DNA of 26,475 nt from a virus, in the IMG/VR virus record IMGVR_UViG_3300032085_000588, positions 1 through 26,475 of that record; one strand, written 5' to 3'. The position numbers were made by a program, and so were the translations under genes. How positions within the stretch are numbered: the first letter of the stretch is position 1; every line of letters starts with the position of its first letter. The notes below the pieces were generated by a model, which had not been told where the DNA came from, did not search any database, and saw only the letters and a list, made by a program, of their open reading frames with translations. Of this stretch, positions 6,579 to 18,341 are shown one piece after another.

Positions 6579-6609
6579 TGGTTTTAGGTTTATCGGTACC
6601 TATATAATT

Positions 6610-6650
6610 ACACATAGATACACAAATTTAACATTTATTTTTCACTTAAG
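6610..6650 (-). promoter_or_regulatory. Candidate Bacteroidetes-type promoter before the recombination/replication operon
   Basis: In the gap upstream of the ERF gene, the minus strand carries TAAATTTG (6630-6623), an exact match to the Bacteroidetes -7 element TAnnTTTG, 44 nt before the ATG. A good -33 TTTG is not present at the expected spacing (only a CTT), so this is a half-supported promoter. Confidence 0.35.
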
Positions 6651-7406
6651 TTACAGGTAGTCAACCACTTGCGAGTAAGAAACGTTGTCTATTAACTTCT
6701 GTATTCCTTGCTTTTTTAGCTGTGAAACACGCACATAAGAACTACTACCTTTTATACCTAATATTTCAGCTATTTGTTTTGCGGAGTGCTTATCACAATC
6801 AAGACCGTAAGATAATCTTATAACTTGGTATTCTTTATGACTTACGTGTTCCATCATTAATCCTTTTAAATAAGCTAATAAAAGATCTTTGTTGTACTCT
6901 TTTGATTTATCTGGTATATCGTAAACTACATTAGTATCATCATCTTGTTTATCAATACTTAAAAACACGGAGTTGAAAAATAAAGCTACAGCTTTTTTAT
7001 CTTCACCAAAGTCTTTACGTATTTCATTTAGCTTATGTTCAGGTATACGCATTGTACCTCTGTTCATATCAATACCTCTACGTATTGCACCTCGTATACG
7101 TTTAGATAAAAAAGATTTTATAGTCTTCTCTGGATCTTCAGACTCAGTTATGTTTGACCATATGATTTTATCTACAGCTGCTATTAACCCAGCACTACCT
7201 TCTTGTATAAGATCGTTAATACTCATAACTCCTGTTGCTTGTTGAGAAGTTGGAAACTTCCTAGCTAAATTTTCTACTAAAGGTAAAAATGTAACTATTA
7301 ATTCATCTCTAGTATACTCATCCCAGAACTTACCTGGTATTCTACTTATACAGTCTTTTACATCTTCTTTGTATCTAATATAATTTTGTACATTATATTT
7401 TTTCAT
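6651..7406 (-). CDS. Sigma-70 family RNA polymerase sigma factor
   Basis: A 251-aa protein with sigma-70 layout. Residues 34-115 match region 2 (core binding and -10 recognition): LVENLARKF, then INDLIQEGSAGLIAAVDK, and FLSKRIRGAIRRGID. Residues 175-240 match region 4 with the -35 recognition helix-turn-helix: HKEYQVIRLSYGLD, then SAKQIAEILGI and SSYVRVSQLKKQGIQKL. There is no region 1.1. The protein would direct host RNA polymerase to phage promoters for a middle or late gene class. It follows the HTH gene with a 4-nt overlap, so both regulators are made from one message. The cognate promoter set is unknown; the 33-bp motif repeated among the early genes is one candidate. Confidence 0.85.
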   Translation of the reverse strand: MKKYNVQNYIRYKEDVKDCISRIPGKFWDEYTRDELIVTFLPLVENLARKFPTSQQATGVMSINDLIQEGSAGLIAAVDKIIWSNITESEDPEKTIKSFLSKRIRGAIRRGIDMNRGTMRIPEHKLNEIRKDFGEDKKAVALFFNSVFLSIDKQDDDTNVVYDIPDKSKEYNKDLLLAYLKGLMMEHVSHKEYQVIRLSYGLDCDKHSAKQIAEILGIKGSSSYVRVSQLKKQGIQKLIDNVSYSQVVDYL

Positions 7407-8038
7407 GTCTTATAATTTAACAATTCTTTTTCTCTTTTTAATTCATTACACATATTACGATGCACAGTACGAGATGAACATCCTAAGGCTTCAGAGATCG
7501 CGCGTATCGTGATCTTTTGATTGTTATCATGTAAACCTATCATGCATTCATAAATGTCATCAGCATGGATCCTTTTTGATCTACCAACTAATTTACCTAC
7601 TATAGCTAATTTATCATGCTTCTCAATACCGCAACCCATTTTAAATATTACTTTACGTAATTTATTCTTAGGTGGAGCATCAAGATCGCACATGTAAACA
7701 TCGTGTATAACTCTATCTAATTGTGACTCTGACATAGCAAAGGTACAAAAACCATTTGATTTATCAGCTATAAATTTAGATAATTCTGTAAAATCATCTA
7801 CACTTAACTGAGGGTTTAAATACCATAGTACTAGCAAGTGCCACTTAAGACTTTTAAATGTGTTAATTTTAGCCTTACTCTTGAAAAGATCATACGCAGA
7901 ATTAGTACCCTCCTCGTAAAACCAGTACTGACCTGTTTCTAGGGTCGGAGGTTCTATACGAGTATTAGGATCTAGCCTGGTAACTATTCTTCTACGATGC
8001 AACCAGTCAAGATTTCTATGTATATCTTTGTGTGACAT
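7403..8038 (-). CDS. HTH DNA-binding protein, possible regulator or replication initiator
   Basis: A 211-aa protein with a C-terminal helix-turn-helix at about 176-197 (ITIRAISEALGCSSRTVHRN), the classic A..LG.S..TV.R pattern. The N-terminal 130 residues are helical with many aromatics (GQYWFYEEG, WHLLVLWYLNP) and are not recognised. It is the first of two regulators, overlapping the sigma gene by 4 nt and the 45-aa gene by 1 nt (TAATG). Its start codon is embedded in an interrupted inverted repeat whose main arm recurs in the divergent control region at 16.1 kb, so autoregulation or an initiator role is a reasonable hypothesis. A replication role is inference; DNA binding is better supported. 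Confidence 0.65.
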   Translation of the reverse strand: MSHKDIHRNLDWLHRRRIVTRLDPNTRIEPPTLETGQYWFYEEGTNSAYDLFKSKAKINTFKSLKWHLLVLWYLNPQLSVDDFTELSKFIADKSNGFCTFAMSESQLDRVIHDVYMCDLDAPPKNKLRKVIFKMGCGIEKHDKLAIVGKLVGRSKRIHADDIYECMIGLHDNNQKITIRAISEALGCSSRTVHRNMCNELKREKELLNYKT

Positions 8039-8076
8039 TAGCCTGTTACTATTTTATTAATTAGGCTTTTGTCACA
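8031..8076. repeat. Interrupted inverted repeat at the HTH gene start (copy A of a dispersed element)
   Basis: Plus-strand arms are TGTGACATTAGCCT (8031-8044) and AGGCTTTTGTCACA (8063-8076): 12 of 14 positions pair, with two mismatches in the middle. The sequence at 8030-8051 matches, in inverse orientation, 16091-16112 at 21 of 22 positions. The arm covers the start codon of the HTH gene and the last codons of the 45-aa gene. Confidence 0.75.
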
Positions 8077-8175
8077 GTCCACTTGTAATGTCGCAACAAT
8101 GATTCTTTTAGAATCATCTTTACTGTATTTAATTCGATTAAACTCTTCAATACGGTTTTTAAGGTCTTGCTTCAT
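8038..8175 (-). CDS. Small hypothetical protein (45 aa) ahead of the HTH gene
   Basis: ATG at 8175 opens a 45-aa frame, starting MKQDLKNRIEEFNRIKYSKD and ending NKIVTG, whose stop overlaps the HTH start as TAATG. It fills an otherwise empty 140-nt gap, is charged and helical, and lies 2 nt after the membrane protein gene, all consistent with a real gene. Its last 13 codons carry the inverted repeat described above, so the DNA there may be under double constraint. No family recognised. Confidence 0.55.
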   Translation of the reverse strand: MKQDLKNRIEEFNRIKYSKDDSKRIIVATLQVDCDKSLINKIVTG

Positions 8176-8444: not shown

Positions 8445-9341
8445 TTATTCGTAATCTCTTATACATTTAAACAAAGGGTGACGATAACTACCAGCTTTAG
8501 TACGCTCGAAGTATTTAAACGTGGCTTTCTTACCTACCCATCCTTGCATTATTTCAAAGTTATCTTCTAAGTATTTCTGTTTATCCATAACAGGCATACC
8601 GAACTCATTACCATCAGCATCCATTGCTAAGAATTTACCAATAGTACCTGTACGTTTACCTTTACCTGCAACCCAACCTATAATAGTAGCTTCAGCATCG
8701 TGAAAATTCTTAAATTTCCGTAGATTATGCGAGCGTTTAAACTCATATGGTGAGTTAGTACGTAATATAGAACCTTCGTAACCTTTAGATAAGTGTATAT
8801 CATTTATATCTTTAGCATACTTTTCAGCATAAATCTCATGAGTATCTACATGTTTGATATACATATTTTGTGGTACGTTCATACGTATCCACTCAGATCT
8901 TACATCAAAGTTAGGTCTTTCAAAGGTTGGTACATCCTCTAGTATAACATCATAGCAGTGAAACTGTACTAAGTTTTCAGATTCACGTCTATGTTCGTCT
9001 GTAGGTTTAGTTTTACGTACACAAGAGATAATCTTTTCAAAATCATCTTTTAACTCGTGGTTGTAAAGCTCACCATCAAGTATTGCACCTGGGTTTAATT
9101 GAAAGAAACCTTTAAGATTGAACAATATATGATCAATATTCTTCCACTCTTTACCTGTACGTGAGTAAGCTCTAATTATATTACCGTGGTATTTACCTTT
9201 TACATACTCGTATTCACACTGTATAACACAACGTACACCATCGAGTTTTGGTTGTATAAAGTTTTTAATTTGGTAATCTATTGGTTTATCACTGACTGGA
9301 TAAGCCAACATTGGTTTATATCTCATCTGTACCTCCTTCAT
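8445..9341 (-). CDS. ATP-dependent DNA ligase
   Basis: A 298-aa ATP-dependent DNA ligase. Motif I is KLDGVR with the AMP-accepting Lys32; motif III is AILDGELY; motif IV is YEGSILRT; and the OB-domain end has ATFKYFERTKAGSYRHPLF. It seals nicks, joining Okazaki fragments and recombination products during phage replication. It is compact, adenylation plus OB domain only, like T7 ligase. The first five codons may not be used: Met6 (position 9326), in MRYKPMLAYP, is an alternative that reduces the overlap with the upstream gene from 26 to 11 nt. It is the right-most recognisable replication gene of the leftward arm. Confidence 0.9.
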   Translation of the reverse strand: MKEVQMRYKPMLAYPVSDKPIDYQIKNFIQPKLDGVRCVIQCEYEYVKGKYHGNIIRAYSRTGKEWKNIDHILFNLKGFFQLNPGAILDGELYNHELKDDFEKIISCVRKTKPTDEHRRESENLVQFHCYDVILEDVPTFERPNFDVRSEWIRMNVPQNMYIKHVDTHEIYAEKYAKDINDIHLSKGYEGSILRTNSPYEFKRSHNLRKFKNFHDAEATIIGWVAGKGKRTGTIGKFLAMDADGNEFGMPVMDKQKYLEDNFEIMQGWVGKKATFKYFERTKAGSYRHPLFKCIRDYE

Positions 9342-9579
9342 GTTCTATATCACCTATTTGCTGTCGCAAACTTTTAATTTTCATTTTCATAATTGCACAT
9401 TTTTCGTACTCTTCTCTCTCTTCATACATATTTAATAGAGTAATACATCTAGCTAACTCACCAACTGCATGATCAAGATCGTTTTCAGTTATGTGAGCTA
9501 TACCACCAGCCTCTCTACCTATACGTATTAGCTCTTCAGCTATTCGAGTACCTAGTTTATTAAATTGTTCGTTTGTCAT
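9316..9579 (-). CDS. Hypothetical helical protein with UVR-like motif (87 aa)
   Basis: An 87-aa charged helical protein. The stretch MYEEREEYEKCAIMKMKIKS (about 51-70) resembles the UvrB/UvrC interaction motif (EexdFExAaxxRDxIk), a short helical hairpin used for protein contacts; this is a weak by-eye match. The start ATG overlaps the end of a 33-bp intergenic motif that fills the gap to the upstream gene. The end overlaps the ligase gene by 26 nt (or 11 nt from the alternative ligase start). Confidence 0.6.
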   Translation of the reverse strand: MTNEQFNKLGTRIAEELIRIGREAGGIAHITENDLDHAVGELARCITLLNMYEEREEYEKCAIMKMKIKSLRQQIGDIEHEGGTDEI

Positions 9580-9610
9580 ATTATCTTATACTAATCGTAT
9601 TTAGTTTGTA
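9578..9610 (-). promoter_or_regulatory. 33-bp intergenic motif, copy 1
   Basis: On the minus strand TACAAACTAAATACGA, nine variable bases, then GATAATAT. It begins right after the TAA stop of the upstream gene, and its last two bases are the first two of the next ATG, leaving no room for a leader. It has AA in place of the usual TG before GATAATAT, so it is an atypical copy. Confidence 0.5.
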
Positions 9611-10030
9611 TTAGTATGATGTAGTCTTAACCACTGAGTCAAAACCACCATCACGTAATTGATCTTGTAAATCTATAGGTTCACCTACAAATATACATTT
9701 ATCTTCTCTTGATACTAATGTTCTACAGCAGTCAGGTTGATCACATACAACTTCATCACCAACTTTAAATATACTCATCCATGTAGATTTATTGTAGTGC
9801 TGCCAAATATAGTATATATAATCTAGATTACCACGTTTGGTATCTAGACTATCTATTTCTATATCATCAAGACCTACTCCATCTACTATTGAATTAGCAA
9901 TATCTAAACCTAGTGACTCAGGGTGACCGTCACGATTTTTGTATAACTGTGCGTGCCACTTTTCCGGGTGCTCACTAAATGATACACCTGATTCGCGTGT
10001 AGCGAACCTAATAATCGCTCTCGTACTCAT
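9611..10030 (-). CDS. Hypothetical protein (139 aa)
   Basis: I place the start at ATG 10030 (MSTRAIIRFATRESGVSF); a longer in-frame option at 10087 adds 19 residues that lie entirely inside the upstream gene. The protein has a beta-rich opening, LYKNRDGHPESLG, a tyrosine-rich centre (DYIYYIWQHYNKSTWMSIF) and a Cys cluster (CDQPDCCRTL). No characterised family is recognised, although the STRAIIRF...DGHPE layout is familiar from unnamed phage proteins. It overlaps the upstream gene by 23 nt. Confidence 0.6.
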   Translation of the reverse strand: MSTRAIIRFATRESGVSFSEHPEKWHAQLYKNRDGHPESLGLDIANSIVDGVGLDDIEIDSLDTKRGNLDYIYYIWQHYNKSTWMSIFKVGDEVVCDQPDCCRTLVSREDKCIFVGEPIDLQDQLRDGGFDSVVKTTSY

Positions 10031-10262
10031 AATATCTGTTTTGTGTTTCTTCAATAATAAATCTACCCCATCTAGTGTGAAACCCATAGCTATGTGACAT
10101 ACCTACAGGTTCGTTAGCTAGAAGTAATCTCATTAACTTATCTTCATTCATATCTTGTTCTTCAGCTATATCTGTTATAGCACTAGCTAGAGAATATAGA
10201 TTATGTCTAGGTTGTTTACCTAGCTCGTTAACAATGTACTCTTTAATTGTAAATGCTTTCAT
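10008..10262 (-). CDS. Hypothetical protein (84 aa)
   Basis: Starts MKAFTIKEYIVNELGKQPRH; helical N-terminal half and an aromatic, charged C-terminus (NRYYEYESDY). Its ATG overlaps the stop of the small membrane peptide gene as ATGA, indicating coupled translation. No family recognised. Confidence 0.6.
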   Translation of the reverse strand: MKAFTIKEYIVNELGKQPRHNLYSLASAITDIAEEQDMNEDKLMRLLLANEPVGMSHSYGFHTRWGRFIIEETQNRYYEYESDY

Positions 10263-10342
10263 TTTATTTTAACTTTTCTTTGCCTAACTTCTACAGCACC
10301 TAGTGCATATATTGATAGTATTGCTATTATTTGCCAACTCAT
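10259..10342 (-). CDS. Single-span membrane micropeptide (27 aa)
   Basis: ATG 10342 gives MSWQIIAILSIYALGAVEVR followed by a basic tail (QRKVKIK). Residues 2-18 form one hydrophobic helix. The stop overlaps the next ATG (ATGA), and the gene starts 1 nt after the previous stop, which strongly suggests a translated frame despite the small size. Function unknown; such peptides may act on the host membrane. Confidence 0.55.
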   Translation of the reverse strand: MSWQIIAILSIYALGAVEVRQRKVKIK

Positions 10343-10343
10343 A

Positions 10344-10625
10344 TTAGTCCAGTAAGACCATATACGCTTTAGCATTATGAGTGCGAAACCAGTCTAAACC
10401 TTTACGCATATCTTCCTGCATTGGAGCAGTTCTCTCGTCAAACATATCACCGTGATACCTCATCTCGATATACATTTGAGCACCCATTATCATGTCGTAA
10501 ATTGATAGCTCTAATCCATTTAATTCGTACTCTTCTCCACTGAAAGGATTTCTTACAGTTCCTCCTTGTTCGTATACTTCTCCTTCGAACCATTTTGGTA
10601 CTTTTTGCTCTTTAGTTTTAGTCAT
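10344..10625 (-). CDS. Hypothetical phage protein (93 aa)
   Basis: I use ATG 10625 (MTKTKEQKVPKWFEGEVYEQ), 1 nt after the preceding stop, rather than the upstream in-frame ATG at 10661, which would overlap that gene. Features are NPFSGEEYELNGLELSIYDM, a methionine-rich helix, and the ending LDWFRTHNAKAYMVLLD. I associate this layout (vPkWFeGevYe, NPFSGEE, AYMvLLD) with an unnamed protein common in marine phages, from memory and without a search. No function known. Confidence 0.65.
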   Translation of the reverse strand: MTKTKEQKVPKWFEGEVYEQGGTVRNPFSGEEYELNGLELSIYDMIMGAQMYIEMRYHGDMFDERTAPMQEDMRKGLDWFRTHNAKAYMVLLD

Positions 10626-10626
10626 A

Positions 10627-10860
10627 TTATGCTTTTTTAATAAATGAATCACCCCACACAAAGTCGTTCATAGATACATCATAGAAGTTATCATGTGAAA
10701 AATTAACAACTTGTCTCGCTGTACCGATAGGTAAATCAGTCCAGAATTTGTTAGTTTCTAATTGATTTTTAACATCCTCAACTAAATAAGGGTATCTTTC
10801 TTTCTCTGCCAGTATTTTAGTTTTGACCGCTGGCTTCAGTCTTTTCCATAGGTTTTCCAT
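10627..10860 (-). CDS. Hypothetical protein (77 aa)
   Basis: Starts MENLWKRLKPAVKTKILAEK; ends NDFVWGDSFIKKA. Mostly helical and mildly basic at the N-terminus. No family recognised. It lies 19 nt after the 39-aa gene and 1 nt before the next start. Confidence 0.6.
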   Translation of the reverse strand: MENLWKRLKPAVKTKILAEKERYPYLVEDVKNQLETNKFWTDLPIGTARQVVNFSHDNFYDVSMNDFVWGDSFIKKA

Positions 10861-10879
10861 AGATTTTGTTTATTTAAGG

Positions 10880-10999
10880 TTAATATCTACGTTTTTTACG
10901 TCGTTTTTCAGACTCTTCGTTTAATTTGTCTATTAATCTAGCACAAAGATCTACAGAGATCTCTTCTGAGTAGTACAAATCATAAATTAATCTTCTCAT
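10880..10999 (-). CDS. Small basic protein (39 aa)
   Basis: ATG 10999 gives a 39-aa frame starting MRRLIYDLYYSEEISVDLCA and ending in a strongly basic tail (EKRRKKRRY). It lies between the tRNA-like element and the 77-aa gene and explains most of an otherwise empty 240-nt stretch. The upstream leader is AT-rich (AAAATTACAAAT). No family recognised; the tail could bind nucleic acid. Confidence 0.45.
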   Translation of the reverse strand: MRRLIYDLYYSEEISVDLCARLIDKLNEESEKRRKKRRY

Positions 11000-11013
11000 A
11001 TTTGTAATTTTAG

Positions 11014-11060
11014 TGACCAAGGTGGAGTCGAACCACTTTTCATATCCATTATACTTGGGC
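11014..11060 (-). other. Degenerate tRNA-like element lacking an anticodon arm
   Basis: On the minus strand GCCCAAG (11060-11054) and CTTGGTC (11021-11015) pair at 6 of 7 positions. Inside them is a D-loop-like TATAATGGATA and a T-arm GTGG-TTCGACT-CCAC, followed by a discriminator A. There is no anticodon stem: only about 17 nt separate acceptor and T-arm. It lies between the stop of the 121-aa gene and the 39-aa gene. It could be a decayed tRNA or an RNA-processing signal. Confidence 0.5.
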
Positions 11061-11105
11061 TGTAACCTGCTTTAATATCTCCTCCCTGAGTGTTTAAAGC
11101 GACAG

Positions 11106-11471
11106 TTACTCTACGTTTACATCAACGTCGTCACCAACTGCAAAGACGTTTTCTAAGCGATCCATAATGCGTTGAGTTAATTCTTCTTGACATCTTGACC
11201 AGTCTAAGTGATTAACTGAAACTCTGTTATCGTAATCAAGCTCTAATTCTAGTTCGCAATCACTAACATCTATGTCAAATGTTTCACAGGCTGACTCAAC
11301 AACATGCTGAACTTGATCCATTTGCGCATGAGATAACTTAGGTTTGTTTAAATCTTCTAATCTTTTAGTAAATGCCTCTTGCTCTGCAACTAAGTTTTTA
11401 ACGTTACCGCTTGCTTCTTCGATAAGAACTGTAAGTTCTTTAATTCTGTTTTCTAATTGTACTCTGTCCAT
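11106..11471 (-). CDS. Hypothetical coiled-coil protein (121 aa)
   Basis: Residues 3-45 form a heptad-like coiled coil (LENRIKELTVLIEEASGNV, then LVAEQEAFTKRLEDL); residues 60-121 are very acidic with repeated Asp/Glu, ending DDVDVNVE. It starts 16 nt after copy 2 of the 33-bp motif. Acidic early proteins sometimes mimic DNA or bind host regulators; that is speculation here. No family recognised. Confidence 0.6.
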   Translation of the reverse strand: MDRVQLENRIKELTVLIEEASGNVKNLVAEQEAFTKRLEDLNKPKLSHAQMDQVQHVVESACETFDIDVSDCELELELDYDNRVSVNHLDWSRCQEELTQRIMDRLENVFAVGDDVDVNVE

Positions 11472-11487
11472 TTGTTATTAATTTAAT

Positions 11488-11520
11488 ATATTATCCATAA
11501 GCAATCGTATTTAGTCTGTA
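11488..11520 (-). promoter_or_regulatory. 33-bp intergenic motif, copy 2
   Basis: TACAGACTAAATACGA, seven variable bases, then TGGATAATAT on the minus strand. The TAA at motif positions 8-10 is the stop codon of the 43-aa gene. The next ATG is 16 nt downstream. Confidence 0.55.
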
Positions 11521-11642
11521 AAAGTAGCATATACTTTCACACCTTTCACTGTACAAATCAACTCATGTCGTTTATTTTCTACTACTTTAGTAGATTTTGG
11601 TTGATACTTTGGGTTTTTACTGTTTAGTTTCCTCTTTTTCAT
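11511..11642 (-). CDS. Small basic protein (43 aa)
   Basis: ATG 11642 opens a 43-aa frame (starting MKKRKLNSKNPKYQPKSTKV, ending KVYATFTD) overlapping the end of the previous gene by 26 nt. The very basic N-terminus and the stop inside the conserved motif, as in other cassettes here, support it. No family recognised. Confidence 0.5.
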   Translation of the reverse strand: MKKRKLNSKNPKYQPKSTKVVENKRHELICTVKGVKVYATFTD

Positions 11643-11820
11643 AATAAAGTCCTTTAAAAACACTGGTTACTACTTCGTCTATTTGCTCTAAATTTAGTTC
11701 TTCACCACTAATGTTAGCAGTTTCGTACATTACATCGCATACTCTAGCTAATATAAAGTCAGATACCTCATCAATTAGAGTGCATTTAGCAGTTTCCATC
11801 TCTTGTTCTGTTAATTTCAT
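11617..11820 (-). CDS. Hypothetical acidic protein (67 aa)
   Basis: Starts MKLTEQEMETAKCTLIDEVS; helical and acidic, ending KEETKQ. Overlaps the 206-aa gene upstream by 4 nt (ATGA type), so the two are translationally coupled. No family recognised. Confidence 0.6.
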   Translation of the reverse strand: MKLTEQEMETAKCTLIDEVSDFILARVCDVMYETANISGEELNLEQIDEVVTSVFKGLYYEKEETKQ

Positions 11821-12437
11821 GATAAATTATATCTTTGTCCGTTAATAATTACTTGTACATCATCTTGTGTTCTAGCAAGAGGGTTATTATATTTTAACTG
11901 ATTATACTCATCGCGAGTTATAGTTATCATTTCACCTTCCCATTTATGCTTATATCTATACTCACAGCACTCTTTCATTTGCTCAATATTCCAGTCACAA
12001 CAGCTATATAAGTTATTTCTATAGCGATTTTTAAGTATATAATTAGCTAAGTAAACAAGTTGGTCATCAAAGTTACCAATAAAAGCTGGCTTACTAGTTC
12101 TATATTTAGTGTATTTTTTGTAATAACTATTCCAATACATCTCGTTAGTCTCATATCTTTTATTAATATACCACGGAGAAGAGTTGTAATCACTAACATC
12201 TCGTATGTAACCTGATTCGTAAATAGCGTACTTGTATTTAGTATTTTTACCAGTATAACTTAATCTACTAATAGGTAACTCATAAACTGTTGTACCATTT
12301 TTCTTCTGACGACTAGTAGTTATCTCCTTGATACCCATTAGTTTAAAGAAACCAAGTGCATCAGTGCGATCTTTTATAGTCGTATCAATTTGCTTGCTAG
12401 TTATTTTACCAGCTTCATCTAAGTATCTGTTACTCAT
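11817..12437 (-). CDS. Hypothetical protein (206 aa)
   Basis: The largest unrecognised protein of the early array. It is rich in Tyr, Asn, Lys and Arg, with a Cys cluster (CCDWN, then CCEYRYKHKW, about residues 145-167) that could bind metal. The N-terminal 60 residues are mixed helix and strand (ALGFFKLMGIKEI); the C-terminus ends INGQRYNLS. It overlaps the upstream gene by 4 nt and the downstream gene by 4 nt. No known family assigned. Confidence 0.65.
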   Translation of the reverse strand: MSNRYLDEAGKITSKQIDTTIKDRTDALGFFKLMGIKEITTSRQKKNGTTVYELPISRLSYTGKNTKYKYAIYESGYIRDVSDYNSSPWYINKRYETNEMYWNSYYKKYTKYRTSKPAFIGNFDDQLVYLANYILKNRYRNNLYSCCDWNIEQMKECCEYRYKHKWEGEMITITRDEYNQLKYNNPLARTQDDVQVIINGQRYNLS

Positions 12438-12637
12438 ATCTCTGCTTTATCTGTTATTATTTCACCATCTGAGTGTGACATCCACTCGCAATCTGTTAAT
12501 CTGTGACCTTCACCGATTAAAAAGCTTTCAATAGATTCAGAAGCATTAGGGTGATCTAACCAACCATTTTCTTCGTCTACTGTAACGTCATATTGAAACA
12601 CTCGTCCTTCTGTAAAGTCTAATACTGTTATATACAT
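12434..12637 (-). CDS. Hypothetical acidic protein (67 aa)
   Basis: Starts MYITVLDFTEGRVFQYDVTV; beta-rich first half then an acidic segment with CEWMSHSDGEIITDKAEI. This pattern (short beta hairpins, TDCEWM) looks like a small early phage protein, but no function is known. It starts 24 nt after copy 3 of the 33-bp motif. Confidence 0.6.
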   Translation of the reverse strand: MYITVLDFTEGRVFQYDVTVDEENGWLDHPNASESIESFLIGEGHRLTDCEWMSHSDGEIITDKAEI

Positions 12638-12661
12638 AGTTTTAATTTAATTTGTTCATAG

Positions 12662-12694
12662 ATATTATCCATGAGTGTTCGTATTCATTTTGTA
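12662..12694 (-). promoter_or_regulatory. 33-bp intergenic motif, copy 3
   Basis: TACAAAATGAATACGA, seven variable bases, then TGGATAATAT on the minus strand. Here almost the whole motif lies in the last ten codons of the upstream 60-aa gene, whose TAA stop is in GATAAT. The next ATG is 24 nt downstream. Confidence 0.55.
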
Positions 12695-12847
12695 AATTAC
12701 AAACTCTACCATATCAGATATAATAGTTTGTACTTCATCACCAGTAAGACAGTAGCCAGTTAAGTAATCGAATTCTTGTATTAATTCATTATATAAGTCT
12801 TCTCTGTGCTCATCTTCTACTGGTTTTATTACTCTAAAATTTTTCAT
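12665..12847 (-). CDS. Hypothetical protein (60 aa)
   Basis: Starts MKNFRVIKPVEDEHREDLYN; helical and acidic, ending KMNTNTHG, where the last residues are encoded by the repeated motif. It lies directly downstream of tRNA-Arg (16 nt), so it may share its transcript. No family recognised. Confidence 0.55.
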   Translation of the reverse strand: MKNFRVIKPVEDEHREDLYNELIQEFDYLTGYCLTGDEVQTIISDMVEFVIYKMNTNTHG

Positions 12848-12863
12848 AATTCTTAATTTTTAG

Positions 12864-12937
12864 TACCCGAGATGAGATTCGAACTCATAACCTACGCCTT
12901 AGAAGGGCGTTGCTCTATCCAGTTGAGCTACTCAGGT
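12864..12937 (-). tRNA. tRNA-Arg(UCU)
   Basis: Complete cloverleaf on the minus strand: acceptor ACCTGAG/CTCGGGT (7 bp, one G-T pair), D-arm GCTC...GAGC with the conserved GG, anticodon stem ACGCC/GGCGT with loop CTTCTAA giving anticodon TCT, and T-arm ATGAG-TTCGAAT-CTCAT. The discriminator is A and CCA is not encoded. It reads AGA codons, which are frequent in the phage genes here, so it probably supports late translation in a host with less of this tRNA. Confidence 0.95.
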
Positions 12938-12941
12938 AAGA

Positions 12942-12992
12942 AGTGCAAGATTTAGGCGCATTAGTTTTAAATCGATTACCTAAACTTACACT
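12942..12992 (-). terminator. Hairpin between the 69-aa gene and tRNA-Arg
   Basis: On the minus strand AGTGTAAGTTTAGG and CCTAAATCTTGCACT pair over about 14 bp, with one bulge and one G-U pair; the loop is about 22 nt. It starts at the stop codon of the upstream gene and lies 5 nt before the tRNA. No U-tract follows, so it may be a processing or mRNA-stabilising hairpin rather than a terminator. Confidence 0.45.
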
Positions 12993-13201
12993 CATCTTAA
13001 ACAAGTGCCGTAACCTTTACGACGACTTGCTTTGTAGACTGCTTCAGCGGTAGCTTGGCTTACAAGCTGTATAGTATTACCGGTTTTGTGGTTAGTGATT
13101 GGTACACAGGCATAACGAGCTGTTGTCGAACAGTTTATACATGTCTTGTAACCTAAGTCTAATCTACCTTGCGGTATTACCGCTGTGCATCTACATTTCA
13201 T
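12992..13201 (-). CDS. Small Cys-rich, putative zinc-binding protein (69 aa)
   Basis: Starts MKCRCTAVIPQGRLDLGYKT with CxC at residues 3-5 and CINC at 21-24, a possible four-Cys metal site; the ending RRKGYGTCLR is basic. No named family. It starts 15 nt after copy 4 of the 33-bp motif and is followed by a hairpin and tRNA-Arg. Confidence 0.6.
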   Translation of the reverse strand: MKCRCTAVIPQGRLDLGYKTCINCSTTARYACVPITNHKTGNTIQLVSQATAEAVYKASRRKGYGTCLR

Positions 13202-13216
13202 AATTTATCGTTTATT

Positions 13217-13249
13217 ATATTATCCACAAGTGGTCGTATTTAATTTGTA
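13217..13249 (-). promoter_or_regulatory. 33-bp intergenic motif, copy 4
   Basis: TACAAATTAAATACGA, seven variable bases, then TGGATAATAT on the minus strand, beginning directly after the TAA stop of the 95-aa gene. The variable part with TGG can form a small CCAC-TT-GTGG hairpin. The next ATG is 15 nt downstream. Confidence 0.55.
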
Positions 13250-13537
13250 TTATGTAGCACAACTTCTTTCTATTGGAGTTTCCACTATTGGTTTATGTAG
13301 TTTAAACATCTCGATTGCTAAATCAAACTCGTTTTCACCAAACTCTTTCATATCTTCAATAGTTTTCCATATGTCTAGAAACTCTTGCTGACCTGCTTCG
13401 TAGTATCGATTATCATCTGAGAACTCATAGAACCAGTCGTGTGACTCTAGTTGCTCTTTTAGTTTTCCTCTTAATTCACTTACTGTCATAGTTTTTTTAG
13501 ATTTCCTGTTAATAGTATTTGTCTGCTTGTCTTTCAT
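13250..13537 (-). CDS. Hypothetical protein (up to 95 aa)
   Basis: Helical, charged protein ending TPIERSCAT. The longest frame starts at 13537; an inner ATG at 13489 (MTVSELRGKLKEQLESHDWF) has an A-rich leader and would avoid the 29-nt overlap with the upstream gene. No family recognised. Confidence 0.55.
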   Translation of the reverse strand: MKDKQTNTINRKSKKTMTVSELRGKLKEQLESHDWFYEFSDDNRYYEAGQQEFLDIWKTIEDMKEFGENEFDLAIEMFKLHKPIVETPIERSCAT

Positions 13538-13691
13538 AAAATTGCTCTATTTCTATATTAATCCACTCATTTTCATAATCCTCTACGTTAGTAGCACTAA
13601 CCCACTTGCCAGTTTTCTTACATTTTAAGTACTCACCTGCAACTTGTACTACTTCATCGTGAGTAAACTTTCTATCGTTCATCTCTGACAT
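13509..13691 (-). CDS. Hypothetical protein (60 aa)
   Basis: A longer in-frame start at 13835 would overlap the upstream gene by 164 nt, so I use the ATG at 13691 (MSEMNDRKFTHDEVVQVAGE); 13682 is also possible. It contains CKKTGKWVSATNVEDYENEW and ends RQADKYY. No family recognised. Confidence 0.5.
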   Translation of the reverse strand: MSEMNDRKFTHDEVVQVAGEYLKCKKTGKWVSATNVEDYENEWINIEIEQFYERQADKYY

Positions 13692-13878
13692 AAGTATATC
13701 CTTTATAGTTAAACCACTCATCAATTCCTTCAACATCGCTTTGATATTCTCTACAACCAAAGTTTTTTGGTAATTCACCGACTGCATATGGTCGCCATTT
13801 AGTTGATACTTTAACTCCTGCGAAGTCTTCTTCAAGATAGATGCAACTATCTTCTCTTACTGTTTTTAGTACTCTCAT
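13672..13878 (-). CDS. Hypothetical protein (68 aa)
   Basis: Starts MRVLKTVREDSCIYLEEDFA; a small beta-rich acidic protein with WRPYAVGELPKNFG. Chosen over the long overlapping frame in this stretch because it begins 27 nt after copy 5 of the 33-bp motif, exactly as other cassettes do. No family recognised. Confidence 0.55.
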   Translation of the reverse strand: MRVLKTVREDSCIYLEEDFAGVKVSTKWRPYAVGELPKNFGCREYQSDVEGIDEWFNYKGYTYVRDER

Positions 13879-13905
13879 AAGTTATTTATTTTACGTTTTA
13901 CATTT

Positions 13906-13938
13906 ATATTATCCACGAGTAATCGTGTTTAGTTTGTA
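13906..13938 (-). promoter_or_regulatory. 33-bp intergenic motif, copy 5
   Basis: TACAAACTAAACACGA, seven variable bases, then TGGATAATAT on the minus strand. The TAA at motif positions 8-10 is the stop of the 37-aa gene upstream; the next ATG is 27 nt downstream. Confidence 0.55.
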
Positions 13939-14042
13939 TAACCATTACCTTGAATATACTCTAATATCCACTGCATTTGACTAGTTGATAACTCATCGCT
14001 TTCAATTAGTTCTACTAAAGTTTCTTTTAATTCATCTCTCAT
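13929..14042 (-). CDS. Small acidic protein (37 aa)
   Basis: ATG 14042 opens a frame starting MRDELKETLVELIESDELST and ending YIQGNGYTN. The start overlaps the stop of the 53-aa gene (ATGA), and the stop lies inside the repeated motif, the same arrangement as in three other cassettes. Helical and acidic; function unknown. Confidence 0.5.
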   Translation of the reverse strand: MRDELKETLVELIESDELSTSQMQWILEYIQGNGYTN

Positions 14043-14200
14043 AATATAATTCCTGATTCTAATGCTTTAACTTTCGCTGCTTCTTGTTTAGCTCGCTTAG
14101 CTTCACACATATGGTTATTAATAATTTTAAATGGTGGTCGAGTTTGAAACTCAGTTTCCATAGTGACATCTTTGCCACAAAGTTTACAGTGTAATTGCAT
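14039..14200 (-). CDS. Small protein with CxxC motif (53 aa)
   Basis: ATG 14200 opens a 53-aa frame starting MQLHCKLCGKDVTMETEFQT; CKLCGK resembles one knuckle of a zinc ribbon, and a third Cys is at residue 32 (NNHMCEAK). The C-terminal half is a lysine/alanine-rich helix. The leader is AT-rich (TTAAATTAAATTATT type) and the stop overlaps the next start. Metal binding is possible but incomplete by eye. Confidence 0.5.
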   Translation of the reverse strand: MQLHCKLCGKDVTMETEFQTRPPFKIINNHMCEAKRAKQEAAKVKALESGIIL

Positions 14201-14233
14201 AATAATTTAATTTAATAAGTTAATAATTTCTAG

Positions 14234-14308
14234 TGGAAGCGGTGGAATCGAACCACACTCTATATTATTACTACTTGGTAATACCATCAGAGCTACCAAT
14301 ACACTTCC
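14234..14308 (-). other. Degenerate tRNA-like element without a proper anticodon loop
   Basis: On the minus strand, GGAAGTG (14308-14302) pairs with CGCTTCC (14241-14235) over 7 bp including one T-G, with a T-arm GTGG-TTCGATT-CCAC and discriminator A. Total length (75 nt) fits a tRNA. However, the 5' half of the D-stem is missing (TATTGGTAG follows the acceptor directly) and the central arm folds as TATTAC-CAAGTA-GTAATA, whose loop is not a normal 7-nt anticodon loop. I assign no anticodon. It could be a decayed tRNA or tRNA mimic. Confidence 0.5.
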
Positions 14309-14314
14309 GTGTGT

Positions 14315-14347
14315 ACTTGTTCATATTTGATTTACCAGGGAACAAGT
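14315..14347 (-). terminator. Hairpin downstream of the 88-aa paralogue gene
   Basis: Perfect 8-bp stem ACTTGTTC/GAACAAGT with a 17-nt loop. Its 3' part (plus strand GATTTACCAGGGAA, 14329-14342) recurs in the hairpin downstream of the paralogous gene at 15.58 kb. It lies 27 nt after the stop and just before the tRNA-like element. No U-tract is visible, so the role (terminator, processing or protein binding) is open. Confidence 0.45.
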
Positions 14348-14374
14348 GGAACTAACTGGGCTACTTGCGTAGTG

Positions 14375-14641
14375 TTACGCTTCAACTTCAACTTCAACTT
14401 CTTCAGAGGAAATCACCGCATCGGTATCACGAAGTACTTTTGGTATATTATTAGTCGCAGTGTATGACTTATACTTTTCCCAGCAGTTCATACTTTCGAG
14501 TGCTGACTTCATAATCTCAAACGCTTTATCGTGAGAATAAGTGATTGTTTTACCGTTTTTAAATGATACTTCAACATTGGTATCTTTACCGATTAGAGAT
14601 TGGCGTACTACAAATCTTTTTGACTTTAATAAGTTTGACAT
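14375..14641 (-). CDS. Hypothetical protein, paralogue 1 of a duplicated pair (88 aa)
   Basis: Starts MSNLLKSKRFVVRQSLIGKD. It is clearly related to the 76-aa protein encoded at 15604-15834: shared KSKRFVVRQSLIG / KTNRFVIRKSLIG, GKT.(S/T)Y.HD, ESMNC..KYKSYT..NNIP and a following RD. This copy has an extra acidic Val-Glu tail (EEVEVEVEA). Function unknown; the beta-rich start and conserved aromatic core suggest a small globular early protein. It starts 46 nt after copy 6 of the 33-bp motif. Confidence 0.7.
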   Translation of the reverse strand: MSNLLKSKRFVVRQSLIGKDTNVEVSFKNGKTITYSHDKAFEIMKSALESMNCWEKYKSYTATNNIPKVLRDTDAVISSEEVEVEVEA

Positions 14642-14687
14642 AATTTAGTTGTTTTTATTTAGTTATTAATTTAATTTCGTTACATGT

Positions 14688-14720
14688 ATATTATCCACAC
14701 TTGTTCGTGTTTAGTTTGTG
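14688..14720 (-). promoter_or_regulatory. 33-bp intergenic motif, copy 6
   Basis: CACAAACTAAACACGA, seven variable bases, then TGGATAATAT on the minus strand. The TAA at positions 8-10 is the stop of the 67-aa gene upstream. The next ATG is 46 nt downstream after an AT-rich leader. Confidence 0.55.
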
Positions 14721-14914
14721 ATTTTTTTATTAACTTCTGTAAGTATTTCCTCTAAGTAATTTTTAAAGTATCGAGCAGTTTCTGATAACTCGTAGTTGTA
14801 ATAGAACTCGTCAGTTTCCACTGATTTAAGTGCATTTATAGCTTTAGTGATATTGTCAAGAGTTTTCTTTTCTACTCGACAACAAATTAGATTTTTAGTA
14901 TTTATTTTAGTCAT
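14711..14914 (-). CDS. Hypothetical protein (67 aa)
   Basis: Starts MTKINTKNLICCRVEKKTLD; helical, lysine-rich, ending EVNKKITN, with the stop inside the repeated motif. It starts 2 nt after the stop of the 41-aa gene. No family recognised. Confidence 0.55.
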   Translation of the reverse strand: MTKINTKNLICCRVEKKTLDNITKAINALKSVETDEFYYNYELSETARYFKNYLEEILTEVNKKITN

Positions 14915-14916
14915 AA

Positions 14917-15042
14917 TTATTTTACGTATTTTTTACCAAATATATTACATAGTATAAACCGAGCAGTATATTTCAACATAGTCAAATAAGAGTAGTTATT
15001 TCTATAAAACGACTTAATATTTCTAATGTAAGTATTTAGCAT
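14917..15042 (-). CDS. Small basic protein (41 aa)
   Basis: ATG 15042 opens a frame starting MLNTYIRNIKSFYRNNYSYL and ending NIFGKKYVK, ending 2 nt before the next ATG. Basic and aromatic with a short hydrophobic centre. The leader contains AAACTAAATA, a partial match to the first half of the 33-bp motif. Moderate support from spacing only. Confidence 0.4.
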   Translation of the reverse strand: MLNTYIRNIKSFYRNNYSYLTMLKYTARFILCNIFGKKYVK

Positions 15043-15100
15043 AAAGTGGATATTTAGTTTAGTTATTTATTTTAGTTAAGAGTAGTTCCGCGACTTCTCT

Positions 15101-15169
15101 CTACTTGTAATTATCTTCTGTTAATTTATAATGAAGAAGAATAGCGGAGATAAATATAATTTCTATCAT
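15101..15169 (-). CDS. Possible micropeptide (22 aa)
   Basis: ATG 15169 gives a 22-aa frame beginning MIEIIFISAILLHYKLTEDN, hydrophobic at the N-terminus. It is preceded by AAACTAAATA close to the upstream stop, like other cassette joints. Otherwise 15043-15180 holds only AT-rich sequence. Weak; may be chance. Confidence 0.2.
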   Translation of the reverse strand: MIEIIFISAILLHYKLTEDNYK

Positions 15170-15180
15170 AGTAATGTTAT

Positions 15181-15336
15181 TTAGTTTAATAAATACTCTA
15201 TACAAAGAGCTTCTGCCTCTTGTTCGTCAGGAGTTGGTAATTCAACCTCTTGACATACTTGATTACCGTTAGGTAATTCTACAATTTGACAATTAGTACC
15301 TGTAATTTCACAGGTGAAAGTTCTAAGTATTTTCAT
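15181..15336 (-). CDS. Small acidic Cys-containing protein (51 aa)
   Basis: ATG 15336 opens a 51-aa frame starting MKILRTFTCEITGTNCQIVE and ending CIEYLLN; four Cys are spread over the chain. It starts 30 nt after copy 7 of the 33-bp motif. Function unknown. Confidence 0.5.
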   Translation of the reverse strand: MKILRTFTCEITGTNCQIVELPNGNQVCQEVELPTPDEQEAEALCIEYLLN

Positions 15337-15366
15337 AGTTAGTTAGATTTAAGATTAATTTCAGTT

Positions 15367-15399
15367 ATATTATCCAACGTTAGTCGTATTAACTTTGTA
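15367..15399 (-). promoter_or_regulatory. 33-bp intergenic motif, copy 7
   Basis: TACAAAGTTAATACGA, seven variable bases, then TGGATAATAT on the minus strand. The stop TAA of the upstream 50-aa gene is at positions 9-11. Next ATG 30 nt downstream. On the opposite strand this copy reads TAACTTTG, matching the Bacteroidetes -7 consensus, but it would point antisense. Confidence 0.55.
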
Positions 15400-15541
15400 A
15401 ATTATCAAACTGAGCGATATACTCAGCGTTGACAGTACACCAAAACTTATTACGTTCTTCAACGGTGTAATTAGTTAAATCATTAATACCTAAGTTTGAT
15501 AGGTGTTTTTTAGCGATTTCAGAAAGAGATAAAGTATTCAT
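15389..15541 (-). CDS. Hypothetical protein (50 aa)
   Basis: ATG 15541 opens a frame starting MNTLSLSEIAKKHLSNLGIN and ending AQFDNLQS. Helical, with NYTVEERNKFWCTVNAEYIA. The leader is AT-rich (TTAAATTTTAATACT) and the stop lies in the repeated motif. Function unknown. Confidence 0.5.
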   Translation of the reverse strand: MNTLSLSEIAKKHLSNLGINDLTNYTVEERNKFWCTVNAEYIAQFDNLQS

Positions 15542-15570
15542 AGTATTAAAATTTAAGTTAATTATTTCCC

Positions 15571-15596
15571 ACGGGCGATTACCAGGGAATACCCGT
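15571..15596 (-). terminator. Hairpin downstream of the 76-aa paralogue gene
   Basis: Stem ACGGG/CCCGT with a 16-nt loop containing plus-strand GATTACCAGGGAA (15577-15589), nearly identical to the element in the hairpin after the paralogous gene at 14.3 kb. It lies 7 nt after the stop codon. No U-tract. Confidence 0.45.
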
Positions 15597-15603
15597 CGAG
15601 AGA

Positions 15604-15834
15604 TTAGATCGCTAAATCTCTAGCGAACGCTGGTATATTATTCGAGTTAGTGTATGATTTATACTTCGCGAAGCAGTTCATCGACTCGAACCTATCTTTG
15701 TGAGTATTATACACTTCGTCGTGATTATAAGACACTGTCTTACCTTTATTAGTAGTGAAGGTAATAATAGTATTAGTACCGATTAAAGATTTGCGAATAA
15801 CAAAGCGATTAGTTTTTAAAGTTGAATTTGACAT
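15604..15834 (-). CDS. Hypothetical protein, paralogue 2 of a duplicated pair (76 aa)
   Basis: I place the start at ATG 15834 (MSNSTLKTNRFVIRKSLIGT) because it aligns with the start of the paralogue at 14641; a longer frame to 15873 adds 13 unsupported residues that reach the edge of the motif. Conserved blocks are listed under the paralogue; this copy lacks the acidic tail and ends FARDLAI. It is the first gene of the leftward arm, 41 nt after copy 8 of the motif. Confidence 0.65.
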   Translation of the reverse strand: MSNSTLKTNRFVIRKSLIGTNTIITFTTNKGKTVSYNHDEVYNTHKDRFESMNCFAKYKSYTNSNNIPAFARDLAI

Positions 15835-15875
15835 AGTTAAAATATTTAAGTTAGTTATTAATTTTAAATTCAAAT

Positions 15876-15908
15876 ATATTATCTTTATAAAGTCGTATTT
15901 AGTTTGTA
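15876..15908 (-). promoter_or_regulatory. 33-bp intergenic motif, copy 8 (first of the leftward arm)
   Basis: TACAAACTAAATACGA, nine variable bases, then GATAATAT on the minus strand. The spacer here is the palindrome CTTTATAAAG together with the next base. This is the only copy with no gene directly upstream, so it must act independently of the preceding cassette and is the best promoter candidate for the whole leftward arm. Confidence 0.6.
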
Positions 15909-15967
15909 TAAAATTTAGTTATATATAAAATATTATATATATAAAAATCGATATAATATATTATTAT

Positions 15968-16030
15968 GGGGTGGGGCTGGGTAAATAAAATGCGTTTTTG
16001 GCGAAGGGGGGCGCCATAGGGGGAGGGGGG
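15968..16030 (+). other. G-run island with quadruplex potential
   Basis: Plus strand runs: GGGGTGGGGCTGGG (15968-15981), then GGGGGG (16006-16011), GGGGG (16019-16023) and GGGGGG (16025-16030). Six runs of three or more G within 63 nt stand out in AT-rich DNA. A TGGCG/CGCCA hairpin (15999-16016) places one G-run in its loop. Confidence 0.6.
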
Positions 16031-16067
16031 CTACACCCTACCCCAAAATTTATAATACGAAAAACTA

Positions 16068-16109
16068 TGACATTAGCCTTATAAGTTACCTAGTAACAGG
16101 CTATTGTCA
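16068..16109. repeat. Interrupted inverted repeat in the control region (copy B of the dispersed element)
   Basis: Arms TGACATTAGCCT (16068-16079) and AGGCTATTGTCA (16098-16109) pair at 11 of 12 positions, and the loop holds a second small palindrome, GTTAC-CTA-GTAAC. The right part (16091-16112) is 21/22 identical to the inverse of 8030-8051 at the HTH gene start. Confidence 0.75.
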
Positions 16110-16181
16110 CACTTTTAAATTATAAAAAGTAAATGTGATTATACTGATAAGTAAAACAATTATAAACCAAAAACAATTAAA

Positions 16182-16519: not shown

Positions 16520-18085
16520 ATGGAATACAATCTACCAAGCGAGTTGGTTAAGAGCCTAGACTTCGGTGACGAAGCAAAAAGCAAAGTAATCACCGGAGTT
16601 AACAAGCTTGCGCAAGCCGTGAAGTCTACATTAGGTGCATCAGGTCGATGCGTGATTTACGAAGATGGACGAGGCAAACCGGTCATAACAAAAGACGGTG
16701 TAACCGTTGCAGAAAGCGTAGTCTTGCTTGACCCGGTCGAAAACATGGGTGCTACTTTAATTAAAGAAGCTGCCCGTAATACAGTAAAAGAAGCAGGTGA
16801 TGGTACAACTACTGCCACCGTATTAGCCGAAGCGCTAATAAAATCTATAGATTCTGCCGTCGCTGCAGGATTATCAATCAGAGAAATAAAAGATGGGGTT
16901 AATAATTGCCTAGAAGAAGTGTTAGAGCACTTAAATTCTACGTCAATAGAGGTAAAAGACGATATGTTAGACTCTGTTGCAGCTATATCTTGCAATAATG
17001 ACAAAGAATTAGGTGCTATTATCGCAGAAGCTTACGAAAAAGTAGGGAAACACGGCGTAGTTTTGATGGAAACTAGTGATTCTGAAGATACTTACGTAGA
17101 AATAGTGGACGGTGCGCAAATAGACTGCGGTCTTACGTCTCCACATTTTGTAACTAACACAGAAAAACACATATGTGAGCTAGATAATCCATATGTACTT
17201 ACAGTTTCCTCTGAAATACCTAATATACGTAAGATACAAGGAGTACTTGAGCATGTTATTAAACAAGGTAGAGCGTTATTAATCGTAGCTCAGGTGTCTC
17301 AGCAGGTAAAATCTGCGTTATTAATGAATAAAGTTAAAGGTAATATTAAAGTAAACATCGTTGATCCTCCAGGCTTTGGCCCTACACGTAAAGACGCTAT
17401 GGAAGATCTAGCTATATTAACTGGTTCCACTGTTATTAACGAAGAACTAGGTGATGATCTAGACCTTATAACACCTGAACATTTAGGTGAAGTTGACTTT
17501 GCTGTCACCGACGACAAGAGTACTACTATAACAATGGATGCTGCTACTCCAGATATACTAGAAAGGATAGAAGAAGTTAAGAATATGGTGGCTGAAGAGA
17601 AAAACGGTTTTATTAAGAAGAAGCTAGAGCAAAGAATAGCTACATTATCAGGTAGCGTAGGTGTTATTAAAGTTGGTGCTGACTCTAAGGTTGAGCTTAA
17701 AGAAAAGAAAGATAGAGTTGAAGATGCTATATATGCTACTAAAGCTGCTTTGCAAGAAGGTATAGTACCTGGCGGTGGTGTAGCGCTGTTAAATGCTGCA
17801 GAAAAAATTTTAACCGGGCAAGCCGGCGAGGTATTGCTTTCAGCATGTAAAGCACCATACGAAACTATATTATCAAACGCTGGTTATAATGAGTTTCAAA
17901 ACACACAAGGACCAGGTCGTGGTATTGATGTAGTAACAGGTTTCCCTGTTGATATGATAGAAGTAGGTATTGTAGATCCAGTACTAGTAACTAAAACAGC
18001 ATTGAAGAACGCTGTGTCAGTAGCGTTGACTATCATGTCCGCTGATTGTGTAATTTCAAATATACGTATCAATGAAGGCAGTTAA
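16520..18085 (+). CDS. groEL: GroEL-type chaperonin (phage-encoded)
   Basis: A 521-aa group I chaperonin. Visible signatures: [10 protein letters not shown], the nucleotide site [12 protein letters not shown] with Asp94, the second ATP-hydrolysis aspartate Asp402 in [16 protein letters not shown], and [11 protein letters not shown]. The ring complex folds proteins in an enclosed chamber capped by GroES. The length is slightly below bacterial GroEL (about 545 aa), and the C-terminus ends [11 protein letters not shown] without the GGM repeats of most bacterial GroEL, as reported for virus-encoded chaperonins. It overlaps groES by 14 nt, with the gene order reversed relative to bacterial groES-groEL. 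The likely role is folding of capsid or other abundant phage proteins. The leader TTTAATTTAATTTAATAAAA is typical of Bacteroidetes-type starts. Confidence 0.95.
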
Positions 18086-18341
18086 TGATTATATAGTCAT
18101 AGAGAAGATTAAAGAGCAGAAGACTACATCAGGTGGTCTTCTACTTACAGATGATACAGACATCGATAATAGATATAAAAAAGCTAAGGTAGTATCTGTG
18201 GGTAATCTAGCTGAAGTTATAAAAGTAAACAGCTTAGTTATGTATGATCAACATGCTGGTCATGATATAGATTATGATGGTGTCATGTATAGAGTTATAA
18301 AACTTAGAGATGTAGTATTAGTAGATGAGGATAACAGCTGA
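18072..18341 (+). CDS. groES: GroES-type co-chaperonin
   Basis: An 89-aa protein with GroES layout: the beta strand [12 protein letters not shown], a mobile loop EQKTTSGGLLLTDD (residues 15-28) with the SGGLLLT core that contacts GroEL, then VVSVG, VMYDQHAGHDIDYDG, and the final strand VVLVDED. It caps the GroEL ring. It begins inside the last codons of groEL and ends overlapping the next gene by 17 nt, so all three are translated together. Shorter than bacterial GroES (97 aa) by a few residues. Confidence 0.9.
   Translation: MKAVNDYIVIEKIKEQKTTSGGLLLTDDTDIDNRYKKAKVVSVGNLAEVIKVNSLVMYDQHAGHDIDYDGVMYRVIKLRDVVLVDEDNS

Follow-up and report, generated by a model that had tools for sequence, protein, structure and literature searches.

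What is the function of a two-part element that stands eight times on the minus strand among the early genes of IMG/VR virus record IMGVR_UViG_3300032085_000588, and which factor reads it? The stretch analysed (positions 1 to 26,475 of the record; hereafter the window) has 34% G+C and is part of a podovirus-type genome, with early genes running leftward from 15.9 kb and late genes rightward from 16.18 kb. The element (motif 1) consists of TACAAACTAAATACGA, nine variable positions (N9) and a second half containing GATAATA. The repeats are very probably switches that turn on early-gene transcription in this virus, and they would belong to a transcription system which a large set of marine-flavobacterial viruses evolved along with a sigma factor of their own, in place of the standard host promoters. 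All eight copies that an earlier reading of the sequence alone (the sequence-only reading) had described were recovered at their coordinates on the minus strand; they deviate from the consensus at 0–2 positions, the N9 spacing is the same in all, and no match was obtained in 100 dinucleotide shuffles of the window (chance expectation 0). The copies and their predicted transcription starts (+1) are as follows.

9578..9610, minus strand: motif 1 copy 1, predicted +1 at 9573
11488..11520, minus strand: motif 1 copy 2, predicted +1 at 11483
12662..12694, minus strand: motif 1 copy 3, predicted +1 at 12657
13217..13249, minus strand: motif 1 copy 4, predicted +1 at 13212
13906..13938, minus strand: motif 1 copy 5, predicted +1 at 13901
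14688..14720, minus strand: motif 1 copy 6, predicted +1 at 14683
15367..15399, minus strand: motif 1 copy 7, predicted +1 at 15362
15876..15908, minus strand: motif 1 copy 8, predicted +1 at 15871; first of the early promoters, located where early and late genes diverge

The contact with upstream stop codons described for seven copies was likewise found: a stop codon immediately precedes motif 1 in copies 1 and 4, the TAA of the upstream gene occupies motif positions 8–10 in copies 2, 5 and 6 and positions 9–11 in copy 7, and the stop lies at positions 28–30 in copy 3; no gene lies upstream of copy 8 on the same strand. The stop overlap of copy 5 depends on a short open reading frame of 37 codons as upstream gene. 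The next ATG had been placed 0–46 nt behind the motif, which was corrected for copy 1, where the ATG of gene 9316–9579 lies at motif positions 32–34 and overlaps the motif end. Copy 1 probably serves genes downstream (ligase, helix-turn-helix (HTH) protein, sigma).

The start site was located from position 38, which lies outside the motif 1 search pattern. This position was a purine in 172/172 distinct viral-contig copies (A 52%, G 48%) and in all eight window copies, and position 37 was never G among the 172. Of 116 following genes, 20 have their ATG precisely at position 38, while the next nine positions together accounted for 7; this spike is the signature of putative leaderless transcripts. 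Since GATAAT then lies at −12 to −7, position 38 was set as +1. GATAATA would form the −10 element at −12 to −6, with transcription predicted to start at position 38, often with the first base of the start codon; TACAAACTAAATACGA, which spans −37 to −22, would be a class-specific upstream box. The features of a generic sigma-70-family promoter were present, namely a −10 element with A−11 and T−7 and a purine +1 six bases past the hexamer. The proposal of an early promoter class with GATAAT as −10 is supported by the purine and the leaderless spike at position 38; its likening to an extended −10 needs a small correction, as the TG ahead of GATAAT is at −14/−13, one base nearer than in the canonical form. 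That motif 1 is a promoter is concluded with high confidence.

Conservation was analysed in viral contigs, at least 119 stretches of which matched a degenerate motif 1 pattern. A homolog of the window terminase was encoded in 49 of 50 motif-bearing records (nearly all intact copies 71–91% identical), and motif 1 was therefore taken to mark one clade; the window terminase shares 47% identity with its counterpart in Flavobacterium phage elemo and 64% with the one in MW202828. For complete comparisons, 16 genomes were used (the window and 15 long relatives). Scanning with a position weight matrix (PWM) gave 127 motif 1 sites above the shuffle maximum in 16/16 genomes (5–12 each) and 0 in Markov shuffles, so that the expected conservation in relatives with the same gene order was observed. 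Early-strand sites numbered 125 of the 127, and 122 preceded a gene on the same strand, with 5 inside genes; in most of the 16 genomes the most upstream site lies in the divergent region, ahead of the first early gene. The same clade carries a sigma gene, next to a gene for an HTH protein.

6651..7406, minus strand: phage factor of the sigma-70 family (regions 2 and 4 present); candidate reader
7403..8038, minus strand: HTH protein, adjoining the sigma gene in 16/16 genomes; candidate accessory factor

The sigma gene was detected in 43/50 motif-bearing records, and the 6 inspected of the 7 records without a sigma match are contigs that stop before or within the expected sigma region. Neither motif 1 nor sigma was found in the 18 longest records of the sister clade, using the sigma query that had matched 43/50 in the motif clade, and MW202828, elemoA, phi38:1 and phi13:2 had no motif 1 and no phage sigma, with a second motif (motif 2, below) absent or at background.

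De novo enrichment in late upstream regions yielded motif 2, (G/T)TAAA-N15-TGTRAYTATA, with 78 sites, of which 57 are in late-strand and 21 in early-strand orientation. Two of them lie in the window.

6592..6637, minus strand: motif 2 between the sigma gene and an ERF-like recombination gene, predicted +1 at 6597
16109..16154, plus strand: motif 2 ahead of the late operon, predicted +1 at 16149

Start codons coincided with position 41 in 9/60 cases, and the +1 of motif 2 was set there because of this spike. When both classes were aligned on +1, R−12 A−11 Y−10 W−9 A−8 T−7 A−6 and T−1 R+1 were common to both while the upstream parts differed; each motif looks like a promoter, and the pair looks like a single −10 specificity combined with two modes of upstream recognition. 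Together, motif 1 (early) and motif 2 (middle/late) would constitute a promoter system of two classes that works without sigma-A, the primary sigma of the host.

Host-type promoters were examined as well. In the transcription start map of F. psychrophilum the sigma-A box lies at −12 to −5 (PMC9723704), so the geometry of motif 1 is that of the flavobacterial polymerase: the distance between −10 box and +1, as well as A−11 and T−7, agree with flavobacterial sigma-A promoters (PMC9723704), whereas the box differs at −12, −8, −6 and −5 and no TTG is present in the −33 region. The flavobacterial sigma-A arrangement (TAnnTTTG at −12 to −5 with TTG upstream) was accordingly not found in motif 1. TAnnTTTG showed no enrichment in the clade, occurring upstream of early genes 12 times (17.5 expected) and upstream of late genes 16 times (12.1 expected), and the full TTG-TAnnTTTG consensus occurred 0 times upstream of clade early or late genes. 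TAnnTTTG was enriched in relatives without phage sigma, with 12 versus 1.3 expected in MW202828, 10 versus 1.7 and 6 versus 1.1 in elemoA, and 6 versus 1.1 in phi38:1. From the complementary distribution of sigma-A boxes on one side and sigma plus motifs on the other, a promoter system independent of host sigma-A was derived; in phage transcription, the phage sigma with its promoters appears to have taken the place of host sigma-A.

The explanation preferred here, to which a probability of roughly 0.52 is assigned, is that motif 1 is a sigma-dependent early promoter read with the phage sigma. Sequence statistics established the position, strand and conservation of motif 1, its +1, the −10 core common to both classes, the lack of sigma-A boxes and the clade-level linkage to sigma; the phage sigma is favoured because of this linkage, the common core and the lack of a sigma-A alternative. 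As the reader of motif 1 the phage sigma is given an even chance, and the suggestion that the element is a promoter for this factor stands as the leading but unproven reading. Mechanistically, host core RNA polymerase carrying the phage sigma would read motif 2 and probably motif 1, and either sigma region 4 or an accessory factor, for instance the HTH protein encoded next to sigma, may contact the upstream box. Since the sigma gene lies downstream of motif 1, either virion sigma or a start by host sigma is needed: the first sigma dose could come from the virion, or host sigma could give a low initial reading followed by positive feedback. Several points weigh against this explanation. Motif 1 precedes the sigma gene, so dependence on sigma requires such a bootstrap; the linkage between sigma and motif amounts to one evolutionary event at clade level; and motif 2, placed right after the sigma gene, suits the role of sigma target more naturally. 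A few flavobacterial chromosomes that lack a phage sigma homolog also carry exact or near-exact motif 1 copies ahead of genes. Finally, in three motif 1 copies at one gene family (window copy 1, G019 30601 and G002 28556) the only plausible start codon, an ATG at motif 1 position 32, is upstream of the inferred +1, and these three promoters could therefore serve only genes further down.

The chromosomal copies make a host factor the main rival: host polymerase with a host alternative sigma or an activator on the −37 to −22 box would read motif 1, and the phage sigma would read only motif 2. We give this arrangement well under even odds. The upstream box has TAC...TAC halves 11 bp apart, like a direct repeat of the OmpR/PhoB type or the T4 MotA arrangement, and the gene order motif 1, sigma, motif 2 suits a host-first cascade. 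Exact or one-mismatch sites precede genes in the chromosomes G051, G052 (two sites), G053 and G054 (two sites), with PWM scores of 16–39 against a shuffle maximum of 7.7 and, in one copy, a canonical TATAATA; a search of these chromosomes for a phage-sigma homolog was negative. Their distribution, however, is unlike that of a host regulon, being sporadic in the genus (2/19 genomes), and a family scan with up to 3 mismatches found motif 1 in 14/399 members, not above the reversed control. A host regulon was rejected after these scans of motif 1 host genes in genus and family, which returned sporadic cases only. Moreover, motif 1 matches none of the six flavobacterial sigma motifs in PMC9723704, and relatives that infect flavobacteria use sigma-A boxes, not motif 1. 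The chromosomal sites precede accessory genes, including those for small secreted proteins and a TerB-domain protein. The small secreted protein family has motif 1 in only some genomes, and phage G038 holds a 67% identical homolog without motif 1 directly upstream. PADLOC returned only weak defence matches for the motif 1 host genes. If the phage sigma does read motif 1, the chromosomal genes might be infection-triggered, silent until sigma arrives and expressed from then on, serving defence or a satellite-like parasitism on the promoter system of the phage, an idea to which we attach little probability.

A phage-encoded or virion-carried RNA polymerase as reader is very improbable. The AATACGA-N9-G of motif 1 matches the T7 promoter at −16 to −10 and +1, with seven contiguous bases identical at the T7 distance from a G, and giant virion proteins of 2574–3224 aa exist; the start-site evidence, however, points to position 38 and not to G26, PF00940 was unmatched in the 50 records (a weak result, as no control matched), and the giant proteins examined gave no RNA polymerase match or motif. 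A T7-like promoter was therefore rejected, given the evidence for +1 at position 38 and the lack of a detected RNA polymerase. A virion polymerase within a giant protein was rejected as well, with no family or PDB match and no catalytic motif in the conserved C-terminal part; the AlphaFold model of the giant protein was unusable (predicted local distance difference test, pLDDT, 54).

Scarcely credible is an action at the RNA level, where the motif would signal processing or translation between genes that share a transcript. The placement at gene joints, always on the sense strand, would suit this, but motif 1 also lies ahead of the leading early gene where early and late genes diverge, shows no tendency to form hairpins (mean z −0.4 upstream, −0.3 within and +0.27 downstream), has its purine and leaderless spike at the −10-to-+1 distance and is matched by a second class with the same −10 core. 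The RNA-level signal offered by the sequence-only reading thus found no support in the purine and leaderless spike at position 38 or in structure, and its parallel with mobile promoter and stem-loop cassettes of T4-type phages (promoter early stem-loop, PeSL) fails on the stem-loop, as fold z-scores are near 0; RNA elements and PeSL were both rejected for want of hairpins. Cassette shuffling at the joints, also proposed, was not supported: an apparent excess of gene-order change (raw adjacency 60% versus 77%) was gone in the pair-level test (p 0.43–0.63, few distinct pairs).

Compared with known systems, the window resembles T4-type phages in having numerous strong early promoters, each for a small set of early genes, with more conserved positions than those of the host, but the −10 and upstream box of motif 1 differ from the host primary sigma consensus, and, unlike PeSL, the motif 1 joints lack a stem-loop and a significant excess of shuffling. 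T4 middle promoters combine a MotA box with a sigma-70 −10 (PMC2988021). Motif 1 is similar in its conserved box around −30 in place of a −35 and its sigma-type −10; it differs in that the box spans 16 bp at −37 to −22, no MotA/AsiA homolog was identified, and early genes are marked. Phage sigma cascades such as that of SPO1 (gp28, gp33/34) have an early sigma gene and promoter classes off the host consensus. Both features are found here, but motif 1 departs from the host primary sigma consensus even as the early class. No literature on flavobacterial phage promoters was found. A large uncultured phage group, probably infecting marine flavobacteria, appears to have left the primary promoter code of its host. 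If this is true, the usual early start is impossible, and the phage has either to bring sigma along in its virion or to exploit an alternative factor of the host. Exact prediction of +1 with frequent leaderless starts should permit reliable annotation of hundreds of contigs.

The predicted structure of the HTH protein was confident (pLDDT 87), and comparison of its fold with the PDB gave no significant match. Two copies of an inverted repeat lie at its gene and near the late start.

16064..16112, strand not assigned: inverted repeat TGACAnTAGCCT...AGGCTAnTGTCA beside the late motif 2; possible operator
8030..8078, strand not assigned: second, inverted copy of the repeat, over the start of the HTH gene

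A related half-site was found near the late start in 13/16 genomes, and the repeat could be the operator of the HTH protein. The AT-rich divergent region also holds a G-rich stretch on the plus strand at 15966–16045, GGGGTGGGG ... GGGGGGCGCC ... GGGGGAGGGGGG. The late operon starts (16520–18341) with a phage GroEL and a GroES-like protein; GroEL is common to the elemo and phi38:1 relatives.

In the sister phage MW202828 (L128, MW202828.1) the perfect palindrome GTGTCGTTAACGACAC was observed on the plus strand at about 44700–50000, in seven upstream regions at early gene joints. An exact motif 1 stands directly before a gene around 3100–3130 of L226, a contig from a Prochlorococcus single-cell genome; the contig is phage-like and not obviously of the motif 1 clade, and the gene is 34% identical to an early gene in G025. 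Within the early region of the window, a tRNA-Arg (TCT) is encoded on the minus strand at 12863–12937. The small early genes 14375–14641 and 15604–15834 are paralogous members of the KSKRFVVRQSLIG... family, which has 22 members in the 16 genomes, and a Bacteroidetes bin (L229) holds a relative of this family.

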